A DNA stretch of 64,000 nt from Hemerocallis citrina (lineage: Eukaryota > Streptophyta > Magnoliopsida > Asparagales > Asphodelaceae): positions 186,001 to 250,000 of the forward strand of contig JACEHZ010000374.1 in NCBI GenBank assembly GCA_017893485.1. Reading direction: 5' to 3'. Each line of letters begins with the position of its first letter. Position 1 is the first letter of the stretch. Position numbers and translations under genes: made by a program. The notes below the pieces were generated by a model. That model saw only the letters and a list, made by a program, of their open reading frames with translations. It was not told the origin of the DNA and searched no databases. This document shows, piece after piece, positions 3,455 to 43,200 of this stretch.

Positions 3455-3741
3455 TTCTCACCGGGTGGGAGAGAGCTCAACCCAGTCGAGTCAAAACAAA
3501 TGATCCTGTCATGGTGCTCCAAAATATCTGGATTCAGTTGCGGGAGCCCCTTACGATCACTGCAAGTGTCATCCAGCTTCGGCTTGTTCTTCCACCTCAC
3601 CAAATACTTGTGCATACCACCATCTCTTGTAGAGATTATCTGATCATCTAAAATATTATTCAATTTTTCTGTCGGTGGGTGAATAGTATCAGGTAAAGGG
3701 ATAAATATGGGACTCACCATTAGGCTGCAGGGTAGGCTCAT
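3430..3741 (-). pseudogene. chromodomain remnant of chromovirus integrase
   Basis: The 103-codon frame contains an eroded chromodomain at about residues 30-75, with the landmark text RDGGMHKYLVRWKN followed by LNPDILEHH. In chromoviruses this module sits at the C-terminus of integrase and is thought to direct integration to chromatin marks. The usual tryptophan of the middle strand region is not evident (DDTCSDRKG). The frame runs 25 bp into the LTR before its stop. It is out of frame with the integrase tail upstream (3689-4606), so the two are separated by a frameshift. Confidence 0.75.
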
Positions 3742-19297: not shown

Positions 19298-19345
19298 TCC
19301 CCTTAAACCACTCTAAAAATTTCACATCTTATTCTCTTACTCTCT

Positions 19346-20140
19346 TGATGCGGTTTATTTCTGGGAGACGTGCAGATGCACCAGGTGTGAGTTCGGACTC
19401 GATTTGTATTGAAGGAGAAAGCTGCTTGTCAGACGACCCTCTGAGTGACCTGGCGGCTCCTGCGACGGGCTCGGAGTGAGGTGGATGCCTCGGCTCGGAT
19501 CAGAGGGTTCGAATCCGAGGTCTTGTGTACCTGCAGACGGCCCTGAAACACCGGGGTTTATCCCGGTGGAGGACCCTCCGACGATCTAGTCAGTCTCTGT
19601 GAGAGAGTAGCAATAACTAGGTGAATTTAAGTGGCAAAAGATTGGTCACCTCAAAAGGTGGGTGAGGGTCTAGTATTTATAGAGAATTCCAACCAGGTTT
19701 GGATCCGCTTGGGGGCCGGGTCTAAACCCGAAAGCCCATGGGCCTGACGTGGCAGAAGGCCCAGGGGGTTTAGGGCTGACGTGGCAGTACCAGGAGTGGT
19801 AAAGAGCTGACGCGGCAAAGCCCTTGGTGGTATTTGGAGATGACATGGCAGATCATGGGGCTTCTGTGCTTCTGGGAGAATCTGGTGGCGTAGGGTGTGC
19901 CAAGTCATCTTCATTCTACACCAGGATGGGCGGACGGCCCGGAGGGCTGTCGTGGATCGGAGGCCGAGGGCCATCACCGCTCATCGGATACGAGGAGACC
20001 AGATCTGTGGGGGTGAACTTTGAGGTTCGGCGCTGACCCTGCAGTGGCTCGAAGCCGAACTAGACTGCTGTTTCTACCATTTTTGAGTGAGAGTTGTATT
20101 GGGCCCTGGTTGGGCCCCAAGCCATTTTTACCCTACCACA
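19346..20140 (-). repeat. 3' LTR of the Tat-like element
   Basis: 795 bp, TGATGCGG...CTACCACA on the plus strand. About 98% identical by eye to the right LTR. The minus-strand neighbour just inside (20141-20165) is G-rich, AGTGGGGGGCTTG, the expected polypurine tract. Confidence 0.9.
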
Positions 20141-20159
20141 CAAGCCCCCCACTCCTGCG

Positions 20160-21480
20160 GGGGTGCGGGAGCTAGCCGTGGAGGAGTGTTTACGGTTGTA
20201 GAAATGGGATGGCGAACCACTGGGCCTTCATGAGGGGGTTGTCCTGATTGTTTAGAGCGATCCTCGAGCCGGGAGAGTTTACGGGCCGGCAAGGGTGATG
20301 GCGAACTGTTTGAGACTTCCTGAGAAGATTACCCTGGTGCCAGACCTAACCTCGAGCAGGTGAGGGATTATGGGTCGGCAAGGGTGATGGCGAGCCGTTG
20401 AGCCTTCCTGAGAAGACTACCCTGGTGCTAGACCTGACCTCGAGCTGACGAGGGATTACAAGTTAACAAGGGCGATGGCGAGCCGTGGAGCCTTCCTGAG
20501 AAGACTACCCTGGTGCTAGACCCGACCTCGAGCTGGCGAGGGATTAACGGGCCAACAAGGGTGTTGGCGAGCCGTTGCGGCTTCCTAAGAAGACTACCCT
20601 GGTGCCAGACCTGACCTCGAGCTTGGCGAGGGATTATGGGTCGGCAAGGGCGATGGAGAGCCGTAGAGCCTTCCTGAGAAGACTACCCTGGTGCTAGACC
20701 TGACCTCGAGCTGGCGAGGGATTACGGGCCAACAAGGGTGATGGCGAGCCGTTCAGCCTTCCTGAGAAGACTGCCCTGGTGCCAGACCTGACCTCGAGTT
20801 TGGCGAGGGATTACGGGTCGGCAAGGGCGATGGCGAGCCGTGGAGCCTTCCTAAGAAGACTACCCTGGTGTTAGACCTGACCTCGAGCTGGCGAGGGATT
20901 ACGGGCCAACAAGGGTGTTGGCGAGCCGTTGAGCCTTCCTGAGAAGACTACCCTGGTGCCAGACCTGACCTCGAGCTTGGCAAGGGATTACGGGCCGGCA
21001 AGGGCGATGGCGAGCCGTGGAGCCTTCCTGAGAAGACTACCCTGGTGCTAGACCTGACCTCGAGCTGGCGAGGGATTACGGGCCAACAAGGGTGTTGGCG
21101 AGCCGTTGAGCCTTCCTGAGAAGACTACCCTGGTGCCAGACCTGACCTCGAGCTTGGCGAGGGATTACGGGTCGGCAAGGGCGATGGCGAGCCGTGGAGT
21201 CTTCCTGAGAAGACTACCCTGGTGCTAGACCTGACCTCGAGCTGGCGAGGGATTATGGGTCAACAAGGGTGAGGGTGAGTCGTTGAGCCTTTCCGAGAAG
21301 ACTATCCTGGTGCCAGACCTGATCTCGAGCCGGCGAGGAATTACGGGTTGGCAAGGGCGACGGCGAGCCGTTTGAGCCTCCCTGATATGACTACTCTGGT
21401 ACTAGACTTGGCCTCGAGCTGGCGAGGGGTTACGGGTCGACAAGGGTGGGGGCGAACCGTTGTGCCTTAGGAATGTTGAG
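20160..21480. repeat. ~88-bp minisatellite with ~177-bp dimer structure
   Basis: About 15 units of 88-89 bp, each containing ccttcctgagaagactaccc, then agacctgacctcgagct and gcgagggattacgg. From about 20600 to 21410 two unit types alternate: one with gtgccagacc and agcttggcgaggg, the other with gtgctagacc (or gtgttagacc) and agctggcgaggg. That gives about five ~177-bp dimers. It lies in the 3' untranslated part of the element, between the antisense gene promoter and the 3' LTR. Confidence 0.9.
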
Positions 21481-22403
21481 CAGGGTAGCCCGCTGTCTTT
21501 GTGGAGCATTGAAGGCGCTCCGGGATCTGTGTGATGTTCCAATTTCCCAGGGGCCTTAATTGCGCCGCCTAATAAATGCATGGTGCATGGGCTTCCGTCG
21601 TTTGGTTTTCCCCACGTCATAAAGGCCGGCCTATGGGGGAGGCTATAAGTACCCCTCCCTCCGCAGTGGGTTGGATCACAGCAAGGGTGGTCTATTGGCC
21701 ATCAGAGGTGTCTGCTCCGGCGGACGTCTGTCTCTTGCAAATTTTTACCCCCGGTCGTGTCGGAGAGGTGGTTTCTCTGTCGCCCGGATCTTCTCTTGGA
21801 TCTGATGGCTCTGATACGGTAGCCAGATCTAGGGGAGATCAGGGCAAGAGGGGTAACGACCGAAATCCGGACCGGTAGATGAGGAGCCTCGGATTGGTGG
21901 TGGCTCTGCCGTCTGGATCCTTTTTCAGGTCAGACGACCCTGATATGGTTGTTTGGCCCGAGAGAGATCCAGACGGGAGGGGCATCAACCACATTCCGGA
22001 CTTGGGGCTGAAGAGCCTCGGATAGATGGGTCGTCTCCGATTGGAGGTTGGCCAATCTGTCTTCCAATAGGGCTCCAGGTGATGGCGGTTTCTGTCTCAC
22101 CCTCGAACAGTTCGGGGTTTCGGCTGTCGAGGCTGTAAGCCCCGAGCTGCTCGCGGGTGAGAGGGGAACCGACCGAGCCCTGGAGCCCGGGGCGTCTGTC
22201 GAAGGACGGCGCCTTAAATCTTAAGTAAAATGTTCTCTCCGCCGAATACCCCATCCGACCCGACCCCTGCGTTAGACTGCCAGCCTGGCACTGGATGACG
22301 TCAGCGGCGCACGTTTCGAGGACGTGGCGTGATTTTCCAGGCGGCAGTTGCACGTCAATAGGTGAACAGTAATTGCGGAAATCGAGGAGTCGTTTTCATC
22401 TTC
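21481..22403. other. non-coding part of the Tat-like element
   Basis: GC-rich sequence between the minisatellite and the antisense gene promoter. Frames at 21576-21878 and 21985-22353 have no recognised domain. It may hold the upstream regulatory sequence of the plus-strand gene. Confidence 0.5.
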
Positions 22404-22411
22404 TATAAATA
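22404..22411 (+). promoter_or_regulatory. TATA box of the antisense gene
   Basis: TATAAATA followed by a C/T-rich leader (22412-22445) and the start codon at 22569. The position is right for a start site near 22435 and a 5' leader of about 130 nt. Confidence 0.65.
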
Positions 22412-22568
22412 TTCCCCCTCTCCCCCTTTCGCCCACTTCTTTCTCGCGGCTTTCCTTTTCAAAAAATCTCCCAACACTTCAGCGCTCGTCCCTGCAGTTG
22501 GCTGTACTAGGCTTGTCCTTCCGAAGTGACCCCAGGTTAGTTGGTAAGTCTGTTTAGTTTAGGCACAG

Positions 22569-25500
22569 ATGGATAGGGCTCAGTCTGGCTCGTCAGCGTC
22601 GACGTCTAGGGGGGAAGTGAAACCTGTCTCCAAATCGACGTCGTGGGAGGAGCTCGTGCTTGAGGAGGAGTCAGTACACGTTGCGGAGCCTTCCGATTCG
22701 GTTTCATGGGAGGAACCAGTAGGTGAGGAGGAGGAGGTACATGGTGCGAGGCCGTTACGCTCTCGACGTCCCTTCGTGGTGGAGAGTAGCGAGTCGGAGG
22801 AAGCGAATGATGGTTCGGACGGCGTCCGTGTTCTGGAGTTGACTTCCGAGGAGGAGGGAGGCGAGGGCGGCACAGTAATGAGATCCACAGTTCAGGGTAT
22901 GGGTCCGAGTTCCATGCCGACTGGTCTGGGGCCATTATCTACTCCCTCGCCGGAGTGAACCAAGAAGAGGAAGAAGGCTCCGAGGAAGGCAGGACCGAGG
23001 ACTGGTGGTTCGAGCCAGGCGCCTGTTTATCGCAATTTGTTGACAGGTTCGCCCGTGCAGCCGAAGCCTTTTTGTCAGTATCCCGACGACCTATCTGACA
23101 AGGAGCTCTTCGGCGTGCAGGCCTCTTCGCCGAGTCGGAAGAGGGTGATGATGGACGCGATTCCGACCGTCTTGGAGGGTGGGGACTTGGAGGTTTTGCA
23201 GCTGGCGTACCACATAGGTCCTGGCTACGAATTGATGCTGCCGAGCTCTACTCTGCGCCCAACCGATCCCCTATCTGCTTGGTATTACGTCTTCCCAGTG
23301 GACGCCTTCATCTCTGGACTGAGGCTGCCAGTCCACCCGTTTGTTCGGGAAGTGCTGAACTGGGCCTCCTTGGCGCCGATGCAGTATAGGCCGAACTCTT
23401 GGAAGCAGATAATTTGTTTTGTACTGATGTGCGAGGAACAAAAGGTACCCCTGCGGTTGAATGTGTTCCGAGCGATGTTGATGATCAGCTCGGCGGCCGA
23501 GGGTGTTTACTATATCTCCCCCCGGAGTAAGGGGAAGGTCGTTCACAGCCATCCGGACTCCATCAAGGATTGGAAGAAAAAATATCTGGTGATCCAGAGT
23601 GAAGAGCCCTGGGACATTCCTACTCGATGGAACCACTCTAAGCCGAGCTATCAACCGCCGAGGCCGAGGGATTTGACGGCCGAGGAGTGGGGGTTTGTCG
23701 AGCGCCTCCGTCTGTCCCCTAGTATCGATTGGACGAAGGTGACGGAGGCCCACCTGGCGAGCGTTGGACTGAGCCCAGCCGTTCTGCGTATGTAGTTATT
23801 TCTTTTCTCTCGATCTTTTCGTACTTTCTTGCTCATTGCTCTTAATGGTCTTTTCTGTAGATATGGATGAAGCATCGATCAAGGCAAGGAGGCTCGCCAT
23901 GAAGAAGGAGAACGCCGAGAAGAAGAAGGGGGAGGCGACGAAGAAGCCGAGGGAGTCGTCCCTAGTTATCTCGGAGGCCCCGCTCGAACCGAGGGCTAAG
24001 AGGACTCGCTCGGAGACGAGCAAGGGGGTGGCCCTTTCGAGGGGCAAGGGCCAAGCGAGAGCACCCGATCTCGACAAGGGGAAAGGTCCCTTGGTAGAGG
24101 TCGAGGAAGAGGACCCGATGGTGGAGATGTTGAGGCAACGGTGGGCACCGGACTGGTCGATTCGGATGGGCGACTGTCTGACTGAGGAAGCCCAGGCCGT
24201 TGAGGTGGTGGAGAAGTTGGCGACCCCTCGCGATCGCCAGGTGATGGAAAGCGAGCCCGTAGAGGTGGCGTTTACGCGCCTGGCACAGGCCACCGTGCTG
24301 GTAAGCTTGTCGAACTTATCCCTCTTGTTAATCTTGCTTCGGGAGTCTTTTTCTTATCTGTGCTTGTCGGTCGCAGGCTTGTATGCAGGGAGCTAACGTA
24401 AAGAACCTCTACGAAGCATCCCTGTCACAAGAGAGAGCTCGGGCGGATAAGAGCGAGCGGGAGATGAAGGAGATGCGGATCGAGCTCGAGGACTCGCACA
24501 AGAGGGAGCAGCAGATGAAGCTCGAGCTCGAGGCCAAGGATGCGGAGTGGGGGAAGAGGGTGGTCTCCTTGAAGAAGAAGTTTGCCAAGGAGAAGGAGGA
24601 GTTGACGATTGCGTTCGCCAAGGAGAGGGAAGAGCTGACGGATGCGGGTCAGCGGATGGTGATCAAGGCCCAGGACGAGTGTTACGCGAAGGCCCTCAGT
24701 CATGTGCGGCACTTCTACCTGATCGTCGACCTGTCCAACTTTGAGTATGACATGGAGATCGAGGGGACACTGAAGACTCCTGGCGAAGAAGGGCCCGTTG
24801 ATAACCCGGCTATCGACCCTCCTGCGAACCCGATCGATGCTGAGGTGGGAAAACAAGTTGTATAGTTTTATCTTTCTTTTTTCTCCCTCTCGATTGTATT
24901 TGCCTTCCGCGGACTGGCCACCGCATTTTTTGTAGGAAGCAGCTCAATTTATAAAAAAGTATTTTTGACCGGCCAAGTGTTTTGACCTCGGATATTTCCG
25001 AACCTCCTTGCTTATGTGTGTTGAGTTGGGTGGTTCTCTTGTAGGTTGTGGCTTCCCTTCCCGAGGCGGACCCCCGTCGTTCTGACGTGGCGTGGCTCCG
25101 GAGCAAGGTTGAGGCATTGGAGGCCACTTTGGTTCGGTACCGTAAGGGGGCCCGTAACACTGATGCGGCCTTTAATTATTACAGGAACATGTCCGAATCC
25201 CTTGGTGAGGAGGCAAGCCGGCTGAGGAGGGCGATGGTGGATCGGGAACTCATGGGTGTCGGACTCGGATGTACAATGTCGAGTTCCTCGGTGCAGAGGC
25301 CCTCCTCTGAGAAGCTACTTCGCGATGTGATAGTGGAAAAGGAGGTGGAGATACACCGTTACCGGACGATGCTGGGCATCTCGACACCTTTCTCGGGGGG
25401 TCGGCGAGCAGAGGTGGTACCCTCTGCGCTGCTGCTTATGGAGCGTATGCGACCCGTTGATGCCCAGAGTTCCGTGGCCGGTGTGTCGACCGTGGCCGAA

Positions 25501-25584
25501 CCGAAGGACCATTATGACAAGGAGAGAGTTCCAAGTTGTTCGATTGGAGTGATCCCGCCATTCGTCGGACCAGAGGGGCTCTGA
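22569..25584 (+). CDS. spliced antisense gene in Tat-like element, putative gypsy-type transposon protein (PF04195-like)
   Basis: Four exons: 22569-23787, 23861-24300, 24377-24844, 25045-25584, all with GT/AG introns (73, 76 and 200 nt) and matching phases. The total is 888 codons plus stop. Residues about 1-130 are acidic and Ser/Glu-rich. At about 170-350 is a domain with GLRLPVHPFVREVLNW, then RPNSWKQIICFVLMC, then GVYYISPRS and IKDWKKKYLVI. This matches what I know of the 'putative gypsy type transposon' family. From about 410 to 700 the protein is Lys/Glu-rich and coiled-coil-like (KKKFAKEKEELTIAFAKERE). One in-frame TGA (22956-22958) interrupts exon 1. Its role is unknown; such accessory genes are reported in Tat-lineage elements. 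It converges tail-to-tail with gag. Confidence 0.75.
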
Positions 25585-25660
25585 GAGGGCGGCTTCCTAC
25601 ATTTTGAGATGAGAGGAGTGTTTCTGTAACGGTCTTTGTTTGTTTTCTCATAACCCAATA

Positions 25661-25666
25661 AAGGAG
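25661..25666 (+). terminator. poly(A) signal of the antisense gene
   Basis: AATAAA, 77 nt after the stop codon of the plus-strand gene, in an AT-rich patch of otherwise GC-rich DNA. Confidence 0.6.
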
Positions 25667-26002
25667 TATGAATAAGGAATTCATTTCACTCTTTGCTCTG
25701 GTTGATAGTGTAAGGAATGATGAAGGGAGCGCGGTTCGGCCCTGTCGGTCCGTGAGGGATCGGCGTGGGGTGTTGTGAAGCCTCCCGGGCCTGAGGTCGG
25801 GTCGGTCCTACCGAGGCGTCGGGGATGATACCGGGGAGAAGACTTGGGTGACGATCCCCTTGTCTGGTATTAGGTCGGATCTGCCGAGACGTTTGGAGTA
25901 TAATACAAAGAGATTTCTTTCGTATAAGATAGGGAGGGCCGCTAAAACGGCCCTTTACATACGAAAGCTTTACAAAAGATTTACTTCTAGCCAAGTTAGA
26001 AC

Positions 26003-28360
26003 CTATGCTCGGCCCTCAAGGAACTTCACTAGGTGCTCGGCGTCAAATGGGAATTCCTCCAGCTCGACGGCAGGTCCGGGAGCAGGGCCGTCCCTTTCTG
26101 GTTTGAACTCGACGGCGTCGAGGGGGAACACCCCTCCCCCGACGGTGGTCATGTAGCACGATCGCGCTGCTTCTTGGCTACCTCGGACGATGCCGACTCC
26201 TTGCGGGGTGAGAAATTTAAGTTTCAGATGGTAAGCCGAAGGCACCGCTTGGAGAGAGCATAGCCCGGGTCGGCCGAGTATGGCGTTGTAAGCCGCCTTG
26301 ACATTGACCACCATGAAGTCCATAGACTCGGTCCTCTTGATGGGAGCCGACCCTGCGGTAACGTCGAGGGTAACAATCCCTTCTATCACGACAGGGACGC
26401 CGGAGAACCCATGCAAGGTGTATCCGGCCGGCTTGAGTTTGCCTCTAGGTAACTTGAGATTCTCGAAGGCTTCGAGGAAAAGGATATTAACCGAGCTGCC
26501 GTTGTCTACGAGGATTCGGCAAACTTCACAATTAGCCATGTGGAGGCTAATGACGAGGGCATCACAGTGGGGCAGGCGAACGCCTTCGAGGTCCTCCCCT
26601 GAGAATGAGACCGGCATTGGCTGTAGCTTGGGCGAGGGGTTGTCTTGGACAGCGTTCACCTCTTGGATGAAGGCTTTTCGGGAAGTATTCGATTCTCCTC
26701 CCATTGGCCCTCCGTGGACACAGTGCAAGATGAATGGCGTATCCGTGGCTCCCTCGGACTCGGGATCCCGACCCTGGATGCGGTTCGGCGTAGGGTTCGG
26801 AGGCGAGAGCCTCCGGTTCCTAGTATCTCGCCGATCCCGTGGGACTTCTCGGGTGAATTCTCGGAGGTACCCCCTGGAGATGAGTTCCTCAATCTCGTCT
26901 TTCAGGGCCCGGCATTGGTCGGTTTCGTGCCCATGATCTCTGTGGAAGCGGCAGTAGAAGCGCTGATCTCGGTTCTTGCTGTTGTTAGGTCGGGGAGGTA
27001 GTCGAACAATGTCTTTGTCTTCGATTTCTAAGAGGATGGCGGACACGTTATGCGTCAAGGGAGTGTACCTCTCAAAGCGGGGGACCGGCGGGATCTTCTT
27101 CATGGCCCCCGCGTCCCTCGGAGCCTTCTTTGATGGTTCGACTTCTTCGGCCTTCCGTTTTCCCTTCCCGGTGGCCTCCCTAGCATCTTCGGGGCTAAGG
27201 GCCTCTTCTGCCCTAATGTATTTCTCGACCCTGTTGAGGAGGTTGGGAAAGTCGACGGGGGGTCTCTTCGCCAAAGAAGCTTTTAGCTGTCCATGACGGA
27301 CGTTGTGCCGAAATGCCGCAGAGGCGACGCCTGGATCAAGAGAGGAGACCGACCTTGCCTCCGCGGTAAACCTCCGGACGAACACTTTGAGTGACTCTCC
27401 TTCTATCTGTCTGAGCCCGAGTAAAGAGGCGCTGGTCCTTTCCGCCTTTCGGCTGGTGACGAAGTGGGCAAGAAAATTGCCCTCTAGCTGGTCGAAGGAG
27501 TAAATGGAGCCGGGGGTGTGTTTCGAGAACCATTCACGAGCCGGACCCCGAAGTGTGGCGGGGAAGGCTCGGCATAGCAGGGGATCCGAGGCGCTGTGAA
27601 TCATCATGAGGGTTTTGAAACCCTCCATGTGATCAGCGGGATCTCCCTCGCCGTCGTAGGTCTCGAATTGAGGTGGTCGGAAATTCCTGGGTATTTCCGC
27701 TTGGAGGATGGGGGCGGAGAAGGGAGGACGGACAGGTCTGTACCCCTGAGCCGCTCATTGGTCGCCGTCTCCTATATGATCGAGGCGATCCTCCATTTCT
27801 TGGAGGCGCCTTAGGAGTACGCCATCGTCTTCTGGCTGGATTGTTGACGGGCGCGACACGCTGGCCTCGGCATCCGACCCGGTTTGGGAGTGGAGGGCTT
27901 CCTCCCTGGGGGCCCGTCGGAGGGCCCCGAGAATTTCTCTCCGGAAGTCTTGGAACTCTTTGTGAGTGACGGGGGCTCCCTCGACCCTGTTTGGTCGGTC
28001 TGAAGGTTGCCTTCCGATGCGGCTGAGTGCTGGCCTCCGTCCCTCGGGCTGCGGTCTTGGATGGTTCGGGGCCGGGTTGGAAGCGGCCCTTCCCCTGCTG
28101 CGGCTAATCTGTCGGTTGACGATTACCCCCCGGAGGTCGGGCTGGACTTGACGGGTGACGCTCCTTTGGGACCCCTGATGGGGAGCCCTGTGTTTTGAAG
28201 TGTGTGGACCGGCATTCGCGGTTGGTGGGGGCGAGTCCCGTCGGTTGACGGAGGAAGCAGCCCCCTTGCCCTTGGAGGCCATGAGAGTTCGGCTGTCGAG
28301 GTGCCTTGATGGTCGTGCTCGGGTCGGCTTCTGAAGCAGTGTTCCCACAGACGGCGCCAA
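26003..28360 (-). pseudogene. gag-protease of the Tat-like element, one in-frame stop
   Basis: One reading frame runs from 28360 to 26003, broken only by a TGA at 27755-27757. The N-terminal ~200 residues are basic and Pro/Arg-rich. After the stop comes the gag domain (RGPAREWFSKHTPGSI, FLAHFVTSRKAERTSASLL). The zinc-binding segment reads CRFHRDHGHETDQC, with C226, H229, H234 and C239 counted from the Met at 27628. Then comes an aspartic protease-like motif ILVDNGSSVNILF (residues 372-384). DNG rather than DTG is usual for this group. The frame ends soon after the protease with no polymerase. The product would form particles and package RNA; readthrough of the TGA would be needed for a full protein. 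Confidence 0.85.
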
Positions 28361-28362
28361 CC
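28340..28362 (-). promoter_or_regulatory. primer binding site of the Tat-like element
   Basis: On the minus strand, directly after the 5' LTR, the sequence reads GGTTGGCGCCGTCTGTGGGA. The TGGCGCC core is the common Tat/gypsy primer site start. I do not assign the tRNA with confidence. Confidence 0.65.
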
Positions 28363-29157
28363 TGATGCGGTTTATTTCTGGGAGACGTGTGGATGCACCA
28401 GGTGTGAGTTCGGACTCGATTTGTATTGAAGGAGAAAGCTGCTTGTCAGACGACCCTCGGAGTGACCTGGCGGCTCCTGCGACGGGCTTGGAGTGAGGTG
28501 GATGCCTTGGCTCGGATCAGAGGGTTCGGATCCGAGGTCTTGTGTACCTGCAGACGGCCCTGAAACACCGGGGTTTATCCCGGTGGCGGACCCTCCGACG
28601 ATCTAGTCAGTCTCTGTGAGAGAGTAGCAATAACTAGGTGAATTTAAGTGGCAAAAGATTGGTCACCTCAAAAGGTGGGTGAGGGTCTAGTATTTATAGA
28701 GAATTCCAACCGGGTTTGGATCCGCTTGGGGGCCGGGTCTGAACCCGAAAGCCCATGGGCCTGACGTGGCAGAAGGCCCAGGGGGTTTAGGGCTGACGTG
28801 GCAGTACCAGGAGTGGTATAGGGCTGACGCGGCAAAGCCCTTGGTGGTATTTGGAGCTGACATGGCAGATCATGGGGCTTCTGTGCTTCTGGGAGAATCT
28901 GGTGGCGTAGGGTGCGCCAAGTCATCTTCATTCTACACCAGGATGGGCGGACGGCCCGGAGGGCTGTCGTGGATCGGAGGCCGAGGGCCATCGCCGCTCA
29001 TCGGATATGAGGAGACCAGATCTGTGGGGGTGAACTTTGAGGTTCGGCGCCGACCCTGCAGTGGCTCGAAGCCGAACTAGACTGCTATTTCTACCATTTT
29101 TGAGTGAGAGTTGTATTGGGCCCTGGTTGGGCCCCAAGCCATTTTTACCCTACCACA
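28363..29157 (-). repeat. 5' LTR of the Tat-like element
   Basis: 795 bp with the same ends as the left LTR and followed by the target duplication TCTCT. Confidence 0.9.
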
Positions 29158-29586
29158 TCTCTCTACTATTACTACTCAATTCTTTGAATTTTGTCAACAA
29201 AGAAGCTAGTAACATTATAGAAGCGACAAATTCCGATCGTATTGAATTCAACATTCAACTACGTCTACTTCAAGTCTTCAACTCCTCTAAGGCTCCAACA
29301 AATAAGCTCTCTTTCTATCTATATACAAGCCTGGACTTCTACTTGTACTTCTACTTTTATTTTTACTCTCATTCAATATACGAGTATCCGTGAAGTACAA
29401 TATCAAAATTTCACAACCCTCTTATTGTCTTTATATTTTTTTGTAGTTTAATTTTTTTGTATCATATTAGTTTGTTGGTTTTTTGATCTTCTCTCTCACA
29501 ACCCTCTTATTGTTTTCTAGATTTTTTTTTAAAACTTATCTCGCCTAGATTGTATTTAATTTTTTCACATACACTACTATATCAAC

Positions 29587-40228: not shown

Positions 40229-43200
40229 ACTCTTGGTAGGTGAAACCTTCAGAAAGACAAAGTCACCAACCTCAAACTCAAGGTCCCTCCTCCGGTTGTC
40301 TGCATAGCTCTTCTGCCTACTCTGAGCATCCACCAACCTCTTCTGGATCAGATCGATCTTTTCAGAGGTCTGCTGCACAATCTCAGGCCCAAACATCTGC
40401 CGCTCCCCAACTTCAAACCAACAAACAAGTGTTCTACACTTTCTGTCATACAGAGTTTCGTACGGTGCCATCCCAATACTAGTCTGAAAACTTTTGTTGT
40501 AGGCAAACTCTACCAGAGCTAGATGCCTTTCTCAACTGCCTCCAAAATCTAAAACACAACACCGAAGCATATCCTCAAGAATACAGTTGACTCTCTCGGT
40601 CTGCCCATCGGTCTGCAGATGAAAAGTAGTACTGAAATCCGTCTTGGTACCTAAAGCTGTCTGAAGACTCCTCAAGAAATGCGAAGTAAACTGCACATCT
40701 CGATCAGACACTATGGTTAACAGAATACCATGAAGCCTGACGATCTCTCCAACGTACAGCTCGGCCAACTTATCCATAGACGAAGTGAGTTTCATCGCCA
40801 AGAAGTGAGCGGACTTGGTTAGTCGATAGACTATGACCCAAATCGCATCATTGCCCTTTGAACTCTTGGGCAAACCCGTGATGAAATCCATACTAATGTT
40901 ATCCCACTTCCATTCCAGAATAGGTAATAGTTGCAATAGACCTCCAAATTTCTGATTCTTGACTTTGACCTGCTGACAGATCTCACACTTTGCCACAAAC
41001 TCGACCACATCCTGCTTCAAACCTGACCACCAGAAATGTTACTTGATGTCCTTATACATCTTGGTACTCCCAGGATATACAGAAAAAAGAGTAGCATGTG
41101 CCTCTTGAAGAATGCTCTCCTGCAATTCTGCTTGATCCGGAACACATAGCCTCTCTCCAAACCACAACACTTCATGCCTGATCTGAAACTCTGACAACTT
41201 GCCAGCACCAACCAGCTCCTTCATCTTCAGAATCTCTACATCTTCCTTCTAACTTGTTATAATCCTTTCATTCAGCGTTGTTTGGAGCCTCAACTAAGCT
41301 AAAGATGATCCCAAGCCTTGCAAAGCAACTTCAATACCAGCCCGATCCAACTCCTCTGAAAGCTGCCTCTGAGTTGAAATCAAACTAGCCATACTGCTCT
41401 TGCAGCTAAGTGCATCAGCAAAAACATTAGCCTTCCCAGAGTGGTACTTAATCTCTGGACGAATGTCCTCAAGTACTTCCAGCCATCTTCGTTGCCTCAG
41501 ATTCAGGTCTTTCTGCTGATGCATGTACTTCAAGCTCTTATGGTCCGTGTACATGTTCAGCTTCTCACCATACACGTAGTGTCTCCATTGTTTTAAGGTA
41601 AAGATAATCGCAGCCAACTCTAGATCAGGAGTCGGATAATTCTTCTCATACGGTCTTAGTTGCCTAGACCCATAAGCGATCACTTTTCCTTCTTGTATTA
41701 AGACACAACCAAGCTCACGATGTGAAGCATCGCTGTAGACATCATACTCAATACCTGCTCTAGGAAAAACTAAAATAGGAGCAGTAGTCAGTTTCTCTTT
41801 CAACTCCTGAAAGCTTGCCTCGCACTGCTCAGTCCATTTGAAGTTCACATTCTTCTTGGTCAGACCAGTGAGTGGCATGGCTATCTGAGCATAACCCTGA
41901 ATAAATCTCCTGTAGTATCCAGTTAGCCCAAGAAAACTTTTGATTTCCTTCATTGTAGTAGGCCTTGCCCAATCCTTCACCGCCTCTATCTTCTGCGGAT
42001 TAGTTGCCGCTCCCTCCTTAGAAAGGATGTGACCTAGAAATGTCACTTCAGATTTCCAGATATCACACTTGGACAACTTGGCATACAACTCATGCTCCTG
42101 AAGCTTCCTCAAAACCACTGTCAGATGCTCTGTGTGCTCCTCCTCCGACTTGGAGTACACAAGAATATTATCGATAAACACCACAACGAAAGAATCAATA
42201 AACGGCCTCAGAACTCGATTCATCATATCCATAAAAATTGCAGGTGCATTCGTTACTCCAAACGGCATAACTAAGAATTCGTAATTCCCGTGTCGAGTTC
42301 GGAACACAGTCTTATGCACATCTTCAGCTTTTACTCGAACCTGATGGTATCCTAATCGAAGATCTATTTTGAAGAAAATAGTTGCTCCTTGTAGACGGTC
42401 GAACAAGTCTTCATTTCGGGGAATAAGATACTTGTTCTGAACAGTGGCCATATTCAGCTCTCGGTAATCGGTGCACATCCTCATCGAACCATCCTTCTTC
42501 TTTACCAACAGCACCGGTACTCCCCAAGGTGACGCATTCGGTTAAATAAAGCCTTTCTTCAACAGTTCCTCAATCTGTCGTTTGATCTCATCCTGCTCCA
42601 CAGACGCCATCCTATACGGTGCCTTGGAAATTGGTGCACTCCCTGGCTGAATAGTGATGCTGAACTCTACATCACGATGCGGGGGTAACCCAGGCAAATC
42701 TTCCAAGAATACGGTCGGATAATCCCGAACCACTGGAATTTGCTGCACCTCTACAAGAATCCCCTACTTCCTTCTGATAGGAGCAACCAAGCCTGAACAT
42801 CTTCTTTTCCCTTGGAAAGTGACTTTAGGTCCACCTGGAGCCTTCACTGTTACTTCTTTGGTCTTGCACTCGATGCTTGCACTGTACACCGATATCCAAT
42901 CAATGCCAATAATAATATCGACTCCCAAGACATTCGGCTCGATCAGATCAATCCCGAAAATTCTATCTCCAATCACGATTTTGCAGTCCGTATAGTACCG
43001 ATCAGTGGTTAAAGTCTCCCCTGATGGAATAGCTACTGCAAAAACCTTGCCTGGAAAGACTTTCGGTTCGACTCCCAAAACTTTAGCAAACTTAGGTGAT
43101 ACAAAAGTGTGAGAGGACCCAGTATTGAACAAAACAACAGCTTTCTTTCCATTCAAATAAAGTTCTCCTGTTACATAACACACACTCGTTACATAACAGT

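Follow-up and report, generated by a model that had tools for sequence, protein, structure and literature searches.

Why should a retrotransposon that lacks pol retain a gene on its opposite strand, and is the protein of that gene of any use to the element? The question is raised by a long terminal repeat (LTR) element at 19346-29157, in minus-strand orientation, of a 64,000-nt stretch of the Hemerocallis citrina genome (contig JACEHZ010000374.1, positions 186,001-250,000, forward strand; hereafter the window), the genome around it amounting to 3.78 Gb in 701 contigs. In the explanation that we favour and regard as probable, though far from certain, the element is a degenerate member of a high-copy LTR family that lacks pol and likely belongs to the Retand lineage; the family carries a predicted four-exon antisense gene with a TRP28 domain, under purifying selection on its protein.

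Most of the outline had been drawn in an original prediction from the sequence, and much of it was borne out. The two 795-bp LTRs (3' LTR at 19346-20140, 5' LTR at 28363-29157) align without gaps and with 17 mismatches (97.9% identity), and the TCTCT target site duplication stands on both sides (19341-19345 and 29158-29162). A Pfam scan of 17 window translations, which were the open frames of about 100 aa or longer and not every frame, identified Retrotrans_gag (PF03732, E value 1e-12) on the minus strand, as had been claimed, and no RT (reverse transcriptase), RNase H or integrase family in the element. The same scan placed Transposase_28 (TRP28, PF04195; E 6.9e-15, bit score 55.5, cut-off 26.2) in exon 1 of the antisense gene; a resemblance of the central domain to this 'putative gypsy type transposon' family had been suspected. 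The gene occupies 22569-25584 on the plus strand, with exons at 22569-23787, 23861-24300, 24377-24844 and 25045-25584; the proposed borders 23787/23861, 24300/24377 and 24844/25045, with GT/AG introns, are correct. The TATA box TATAAATA, its predicted promoter, does lie at 22404-22411 and is identical in 27 of 29 other copies. The AATAAA hexamer, a predicted poly(A) signal, is present as well and kept in all 29; its position is 25657-25662 rather than 25661.

The exon model of an 888-codon gene holds, but the gene is not open in the window copy, in which codon 130 is a TGA (22956-22958). A stop in gag (27755-27757) had also been overlooked; it splits the gag-protease region (26003-28360, minus strand) into two open frames of 541 and 201 aa. 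The former stop is missing from 29/29 other copies and the latter from all four that cover that place. The window copy is one decayed member of a numerous pol-less family, and since both of its genes hold premature stops, the interest rests on the family rather than on this copy.

The family was represented by 30 copies, the best of 40 places (94-100% identical) listed by a search with the gene, the window copy itself (L009) included. The conservation of splice sites among copies, on which the original prediction depended, was found throughout: all six dinucleotides of the three introns are intact in 29/29 other copies, while 51.6% of the 446 GT/AG dinucleotides in the gene span, the six included, are fully conserved. 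Intron 1 (23788-23860, phase 1, 73 nt, 53% T), intron 2 (24301-24376, phase 0, 76 nt, 42% T) and intron 3 (24845-25044, phase 0, 200 nt, 39% T) exceed in T content every exon stretch of equal length (0/2594, 0/2591 and 0/2467 stretches, respectively), and plant introns are expected to be T-rich. In seven of the 30 copies the reading frame is uninterrupted across the four exons (two of these copies are one codon shorter), and each of the remaining 23 carries one or more stops or frame-shifting indels. The stop codon that ends exon 4 (25582-25584) is present in 29/29 other copies. Overall, the predicted antisense gene comprises four exons and three introns, and the introns are no less diverged than the exons among the copies.

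Intron 3 deserves separate mention. A stop just behind its donor (24863-24865) is kept in 26/29 other copies, and L007 and L001, two other TRP28-bearing loci of the genome, likewise have a stop soon past exon 3; the protein may also exist in a shorter form that results from retaining the intron. The intron also contains the motif GCGGACTGGCCACCGC at 24909-24924. This GC-rich motif, GGACTGGCCACCGC, occurs without mismatch in 25 of the 30 copies (L009-L038) and recurs past exon 3 in L001 (3022-3035) and L055 (5307-5320), TRP28-bearing loci with proteins 36-40% identical to that of the window. On neither strand does the motif region fold better than its shuffled versions (z 0.48 and 0.28). As to the protein, exon 3 is judged from sequence to encode a charged, probably coiled-coil part, and a single-sequence fold prediction of the TRP28 part had a mean predicted local distance difference test score (pLDDT) of 39.9. 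Searches for relatives elsewhere found none: no candidate of 804 from a protein collection passed E 0.001, a PDB search had no match, a 6-row profile gave two chance-level PDB matches only (E 0.39 and 0.42), and Rfam had no match up to E 1.

The original prediction had argued for selection on the unit as a gene, and the ratio of nonsynonymous to synonymous rates (dN/dS, omega; intervals in square brackets) among the copies agrees with it. Changes were classed by the number of copies carrying them, in natural copies only, which gave 777 events in 30 copies for the antisense gene (65 columns skipped), and 288 events over 396 codons in 29 copies for gag (36 columns skipped; L017, in which gag is deleted, left out). 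In the antisense gene, changes seen in one copy have an omega of 0.91 [0.77-1.10], near neutrality, as expected after insertion. Omega is 0.62 [0.45-0.90] at a minor count of 2 and 0.40 [0.29-0.56] at a minor count of at least 3, where no stop was observed and 3.2 were expected; for shared changes without C>T it is 0.25 [0.17-0.37]. Two wrong frames of the same columns, taken as a control, gave 0.95 and 1.03 for once-seen and 1.34 and 1.24 for shared changes. Transversions show the same drop, from 0.91 [0.58-1.61] when once-seen to 0.25 [0.12-0.56] when shared, and shared sites with one change on the tree give 0.32 [0.20-0.49]. For shared changes without C>T, every one of the five exon parts has an omega under 1 (0.12-0.41, with 12-23 events apiece), among them exon 2 (0.12 [0.03-0.29], n=18), exon 3 (0.32 [0.11-0.98], n=12) and exon 4 (0.41 [0.18-0.92], n=23; 0.58 [0.33-0.97] with C>T). 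The corresponding value for gag is 0.16 [0.07-0.33]. The shared changes show that the antisense protein is under purifying selection. Because the protein sequence bears this mark, the protein is likely needed by the element to spread.

The layout proposed for other genome copies was found in every one of the 30, the window copy among them: the antisense gene abuts the end of gag directly, with no pol in between. The match runs on through the available gag part in 29 copies, and most of gag is deleted in L017. At the 80 best gag places, the open frames are 554-856 aa long, too short for a fused gag-pol. Many copies of one structure without RT and integrase are the mark of a non-autonomous family, and this is what was seen at 30/30 junctions and 80/80 gag places. 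Since one junction is common to all copies, the shared changes most simply arose after the loss of pol, and we infer that selection acted on both gag and the antisense protein in the pol-less state. A 32-base sequence spanning the unspliced exon-1/intron-1 border occurs, with up to 3 mismatches, at 1,807 genomic places, which need not all be complete or pol-less elements; the spliced exon-1/exon-2 border, the only junction so counted, occurs at none. These counts fit a gene antisense to the packaged RNA and carry no direct word on splicing of the antisense transcript.

Three members were noted for their structure. One family copy on C4 contains a nested element of another kind, with a 578-aa gag-like frame of its own (L047, 3630-5366). 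L017 (5065-5086) is a deletion derivative that has lost the larger part of gag, from 26145 to 28342 in window coordinates, and L048 a derivative without exons 2-4 (23859 to 25621), with an 8-base overlap at the join (3558-3565). A 16.5-kb LTR pair considered as a possible pol-bearing partner held a nested insertion and a deletion instead.

It had also been claimed that the antisense gene stands in place of pol. This was not upheld, as a second family of the same genome carries the same gene beyond RNase H and integrase. At this locus (L007/L055), an RNase H of the RVT_3 type (PF13456), which we take to be the additional RNase H of the Tat clade, and an integrase zinc domain (PF17921) face an antisense TRP28 gene; a match to rve falls just under its cut-off. 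The introns there are 76, 109 and 216 nt long, against 73, 76 and 200 in the window, with the same phases, and exons 2 and 3 are equal in length modulo 3. Five other aligned rows are 34-40% identical to the window in TRP28 (L005 was dropped, as it contains a stop). The intron-1 donor stands at the homologous place also in L006 and L008, and the intron-2 donor in L001, L005, L006 and L008. Neither donor is found in L002 or L003, L001 is without that of intron 1, and L004 has only a variant of that of intron 2. Since the same gene lies beside RNase H and integrase in a second family, the antisense gene is older than the window family. Judging by these loci, the gene likely did not replace pol; rather, pol would have been lost beside a gene that was kept.

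PF04195 is abundant genome-wide, with 150 scored places from 41,509 first-look candidates. Many of these places have exactly the same score and an open frame of 357 aa, which suggests a further young family with TRP28.

Several observations weigh against the favoured explanation. The 30 copies, being the best of 40 matches, are biased to close, young ones. Once-seen changes without C>T have an omega of 0.65 [0.47-0.90] and so are not fully neutral, and the class with a minor count of 2 holds 7 stops, where 3.9 are expected. As many as 195 of 280 shared two-letter sites require more than one change on the tree, which makes recurrent C>T a concern; shared sites with multiple changes give only 0.59 [0.44-0.77]. 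When C>T is counted, omega for the first 129 codons does not fall clearly under 1 (0.74 [0.40-1.36]), and the same holds for gag alone at a minor count of at least 3 (0.64 [0.33-1.24]). Among the 435 pairs of copies, L020 and L022 are the most alike, with 38 differences over 3,322 bases, and they have two stops of the antisense gene in common; either a defective copy may have been propagated, perhaps with help, or a stretch was duplicated. The intron-3 donor of L007 is weak and was chosen by eye, and no pol donor was identified. Finally, transcription and splicing are predictions from the DNA sequence, and function, nuclear location and binding are inferred.

Some of these points suit other explanations. 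The antisense frame could be a passenger, left over from a pol-bearing ancestor, roleless in the pol-less family and intact-looking only through the youth of the copies. The 23 copies with a stop or frame-shifting indel, the two stops common to L020 and L022, and L048 with exons 2-4 missing would all be at home in such a picture; yet amino-acid changes are depleted among the shared changes and barely among those seen once, and wrong frames show no such drop, so that we consider a mere passenger quite improbable. The selection signal could instead predate the loss of pol, or have come by exchange with pol-bearing relatives, and would then be uninformative on the pol-less state. As the search lists the best places only, pol-bearing elements with a near-identical gene could be missed, and part of the shared variation may be old. 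On the other hand, with one pol-less junction in 30/30 copies, a single loss followed by divergence is the simplest account, and no fused gag-pol frame appears among the 80 best gag places; an older signal is unlikely in our judgement. A host gene with its introns, captured in antisense by the window family, would explain why the predicted introns, TATA box and poly(A) signal resemble those of a host gene, but the domain and the intron places are common to other TRP28 loci of the genome at 34-40% identity, and TRP28 is present in 97% of Retand clusters (PMC11963269). Because domain and intron places are so widely shared, any capture would be ancient, and capture by the window family is highly improbable.

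Two further explanations concern the product. The antisense unit may work mainly as RNA, pairing with the genomic RNA and tuning silencing or packaging, with the protein secondary. The full minus-strand RNA overlaps the entire antisense gene, and effects of double-stranded RNA have been proposed for such units in a review (PMC7264820). The constraint, however, follows the codons of one frame, and the introns are as diverged as the exons among the copies, which leaves a role as RNA little probability. Alternatively, the main product may be shorter, of three exons ending at 24863-24865 inside intron 3, with exon 4 optional. The stop in 26/29 other copies and its counterparts in L007 and L001 speak in favour of a shorter product, whereas exon 4 lies below 1 in frame with or without C>T, and 29/29 other copies retain its stop codon together with the intron-3 acceptor and the poly(A) hexamer; we regard it as somewhat unlikely that the short form is the main one.

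Under the favoured explanation, a pol-less family with a selected antisense TRP28 protein, a possible course of events can be described as follows. The LTR-driven minus-strand RNA would encode gag-protease and be packaged, with RT and integrase presumably supplied by a relative that has pol. Transcription of the other strand would begin from the TATA box (22404) and yield a second RNA, predicted to be spliced three times. The introns, being antisense to the packaged RNA, would not be spliced from it and are therefore expected to persist through retrotransposition. In intact copies, the product would be an 888-residue protein that combines the TRP28 domain with basic stretches and a charged tail. 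Its most likely place of action would be the nucleus, where it would regulate LTR transcription or integration through the DNA or RNA of its own family; the nuclear action is suggested partly because the protein of Grande gene23 has been published as nuclear. The antisense protein would then be something that a pol-less element cannot readily borrow from other families.

More tentatively, and with distinctly less confidence, it may be proposed that the spliced TRP28 gene is of ancient origin and owes the survival of its introns solely to their antisense position, and that its protein is a family-specific factor which the element must bring itself, pol being borrowable and gag and TRP28 not. 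If this is true, TRP28 is an essential, self-recognising part of Retand replication. A family without pol but with selection on gag and TRP28 separates the borrowable parts from those that must be carried, and it makes the function of TRP28 testable by comparison. It also provides a case of a multi-intron gene, as predicted here, kept inside a retroelement; annotation by open reading frames (ORFs) only will report such genes in pieces.

A candidate polypurine tract, a minus-strand purine run, adjoins the 3' LTR at 20141-20160, and a putative primer binding site (TGGCGCCGT...), which we take to be of the tRNA-Asp type, lies at 28342-28359 on the minus strand; the gag-protease frame contains what we take to be the protease motif. 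A tandem array with a unit of 88 bp in 13.6 copies (double unit 177 bp) at 20262-21468 lies, like the antisense gene, between the end of gag and the 3' LTR. The 5-bp duplication, the long 3' region with its tandem array and the antisense PF04195 gene near the 3' LTR are all features of the Retand lineage (Tat clade, Ty3/gypsy), to which the family likely belongs. The LTRs of four copies differ at 17, 12, 12 and 17 sites; at a substitution rate of 1.3e-8 per site per year, these insertions are roughly 0.6-0.8 million years old. Elsewhere in the window, at 41294-42514 on the minus strand, another gypsy element contributes an open frame of its own, which encodes RT and RNase H (PF00078, PF17917, PF17919).

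Among the known systems, the closest are the Retand elements with TRP28. PF04195 was reported in 23% of Retand elements (PMC6317226), and a 2025 survey (PMC11963269) described antisense TRP28 ORFs in the 97% of clusters cited above, together with tandem arrays, predicted DNA binding and clusters without some domains. The window family resembles them in the antisense PF04195 gene between coding region and 3' LTR, the tandem array, the 5-bp duplication and an LTR size within the reported range, and two Alopecurus clusters likewise have gag and protease but no RNase H or integrase. The survey was anchored on intact RT, so that an RT-less family escapes it; it was ORF-based, and the word 'intron' is absent from its text, unlike the intron-bearing model presented here. 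Its accessible text reports no selection test in a pol-less family. The original prediction had seen the unusual feature in an independent promoter, but antisense transcription from its own promoter, as well as a nuclear protein, is already published for gene23 of maize Grande (PMC7264820). Grande is alike in its antisense accessory gene, with a promoter predicted and a nuclear location suggested in our case, but it carries gag and pol, and the window family is without pol. The TR-GAG elements, one of which transposes in Arabidopsis, likewise keep gag without pol (PMC8704663), but their GAG is a single ORF, whereas the window family has a second gene under selection.

Plant LTR elements are generally without introns, with few exceptions (2025 review, PMC12786077). 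Ogre and EVADE are alike in having introns inside the element, but theirs are part of the sense RNA, where they regulate the expression of gag-pol, whereas those described here are antisense and in a separate gene (PMC12786077; PMC6317226). In the openly accessible literature searched, PMC11728184 included, neither the conserved multi-intron structure nor selection acting on the protein of a pol-less family was found described. The hbz and aph genes of human T-cell leukaemia viruses (HTLV) are spliced antisense genes of an LTR retroelement too, the splicing being a prediction in our case, and several such genes are nuclear regulators; their promoter is in the 3' LTR, unlike the predicted internal promoter here, and no sequence relation is claimed (PMC10186651). 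In comparison with these systems, antisense TRP28 ORFs and an own promoter are already published, and what is new is the conserved introns and the selection on the antisense protein in a pol-less family.

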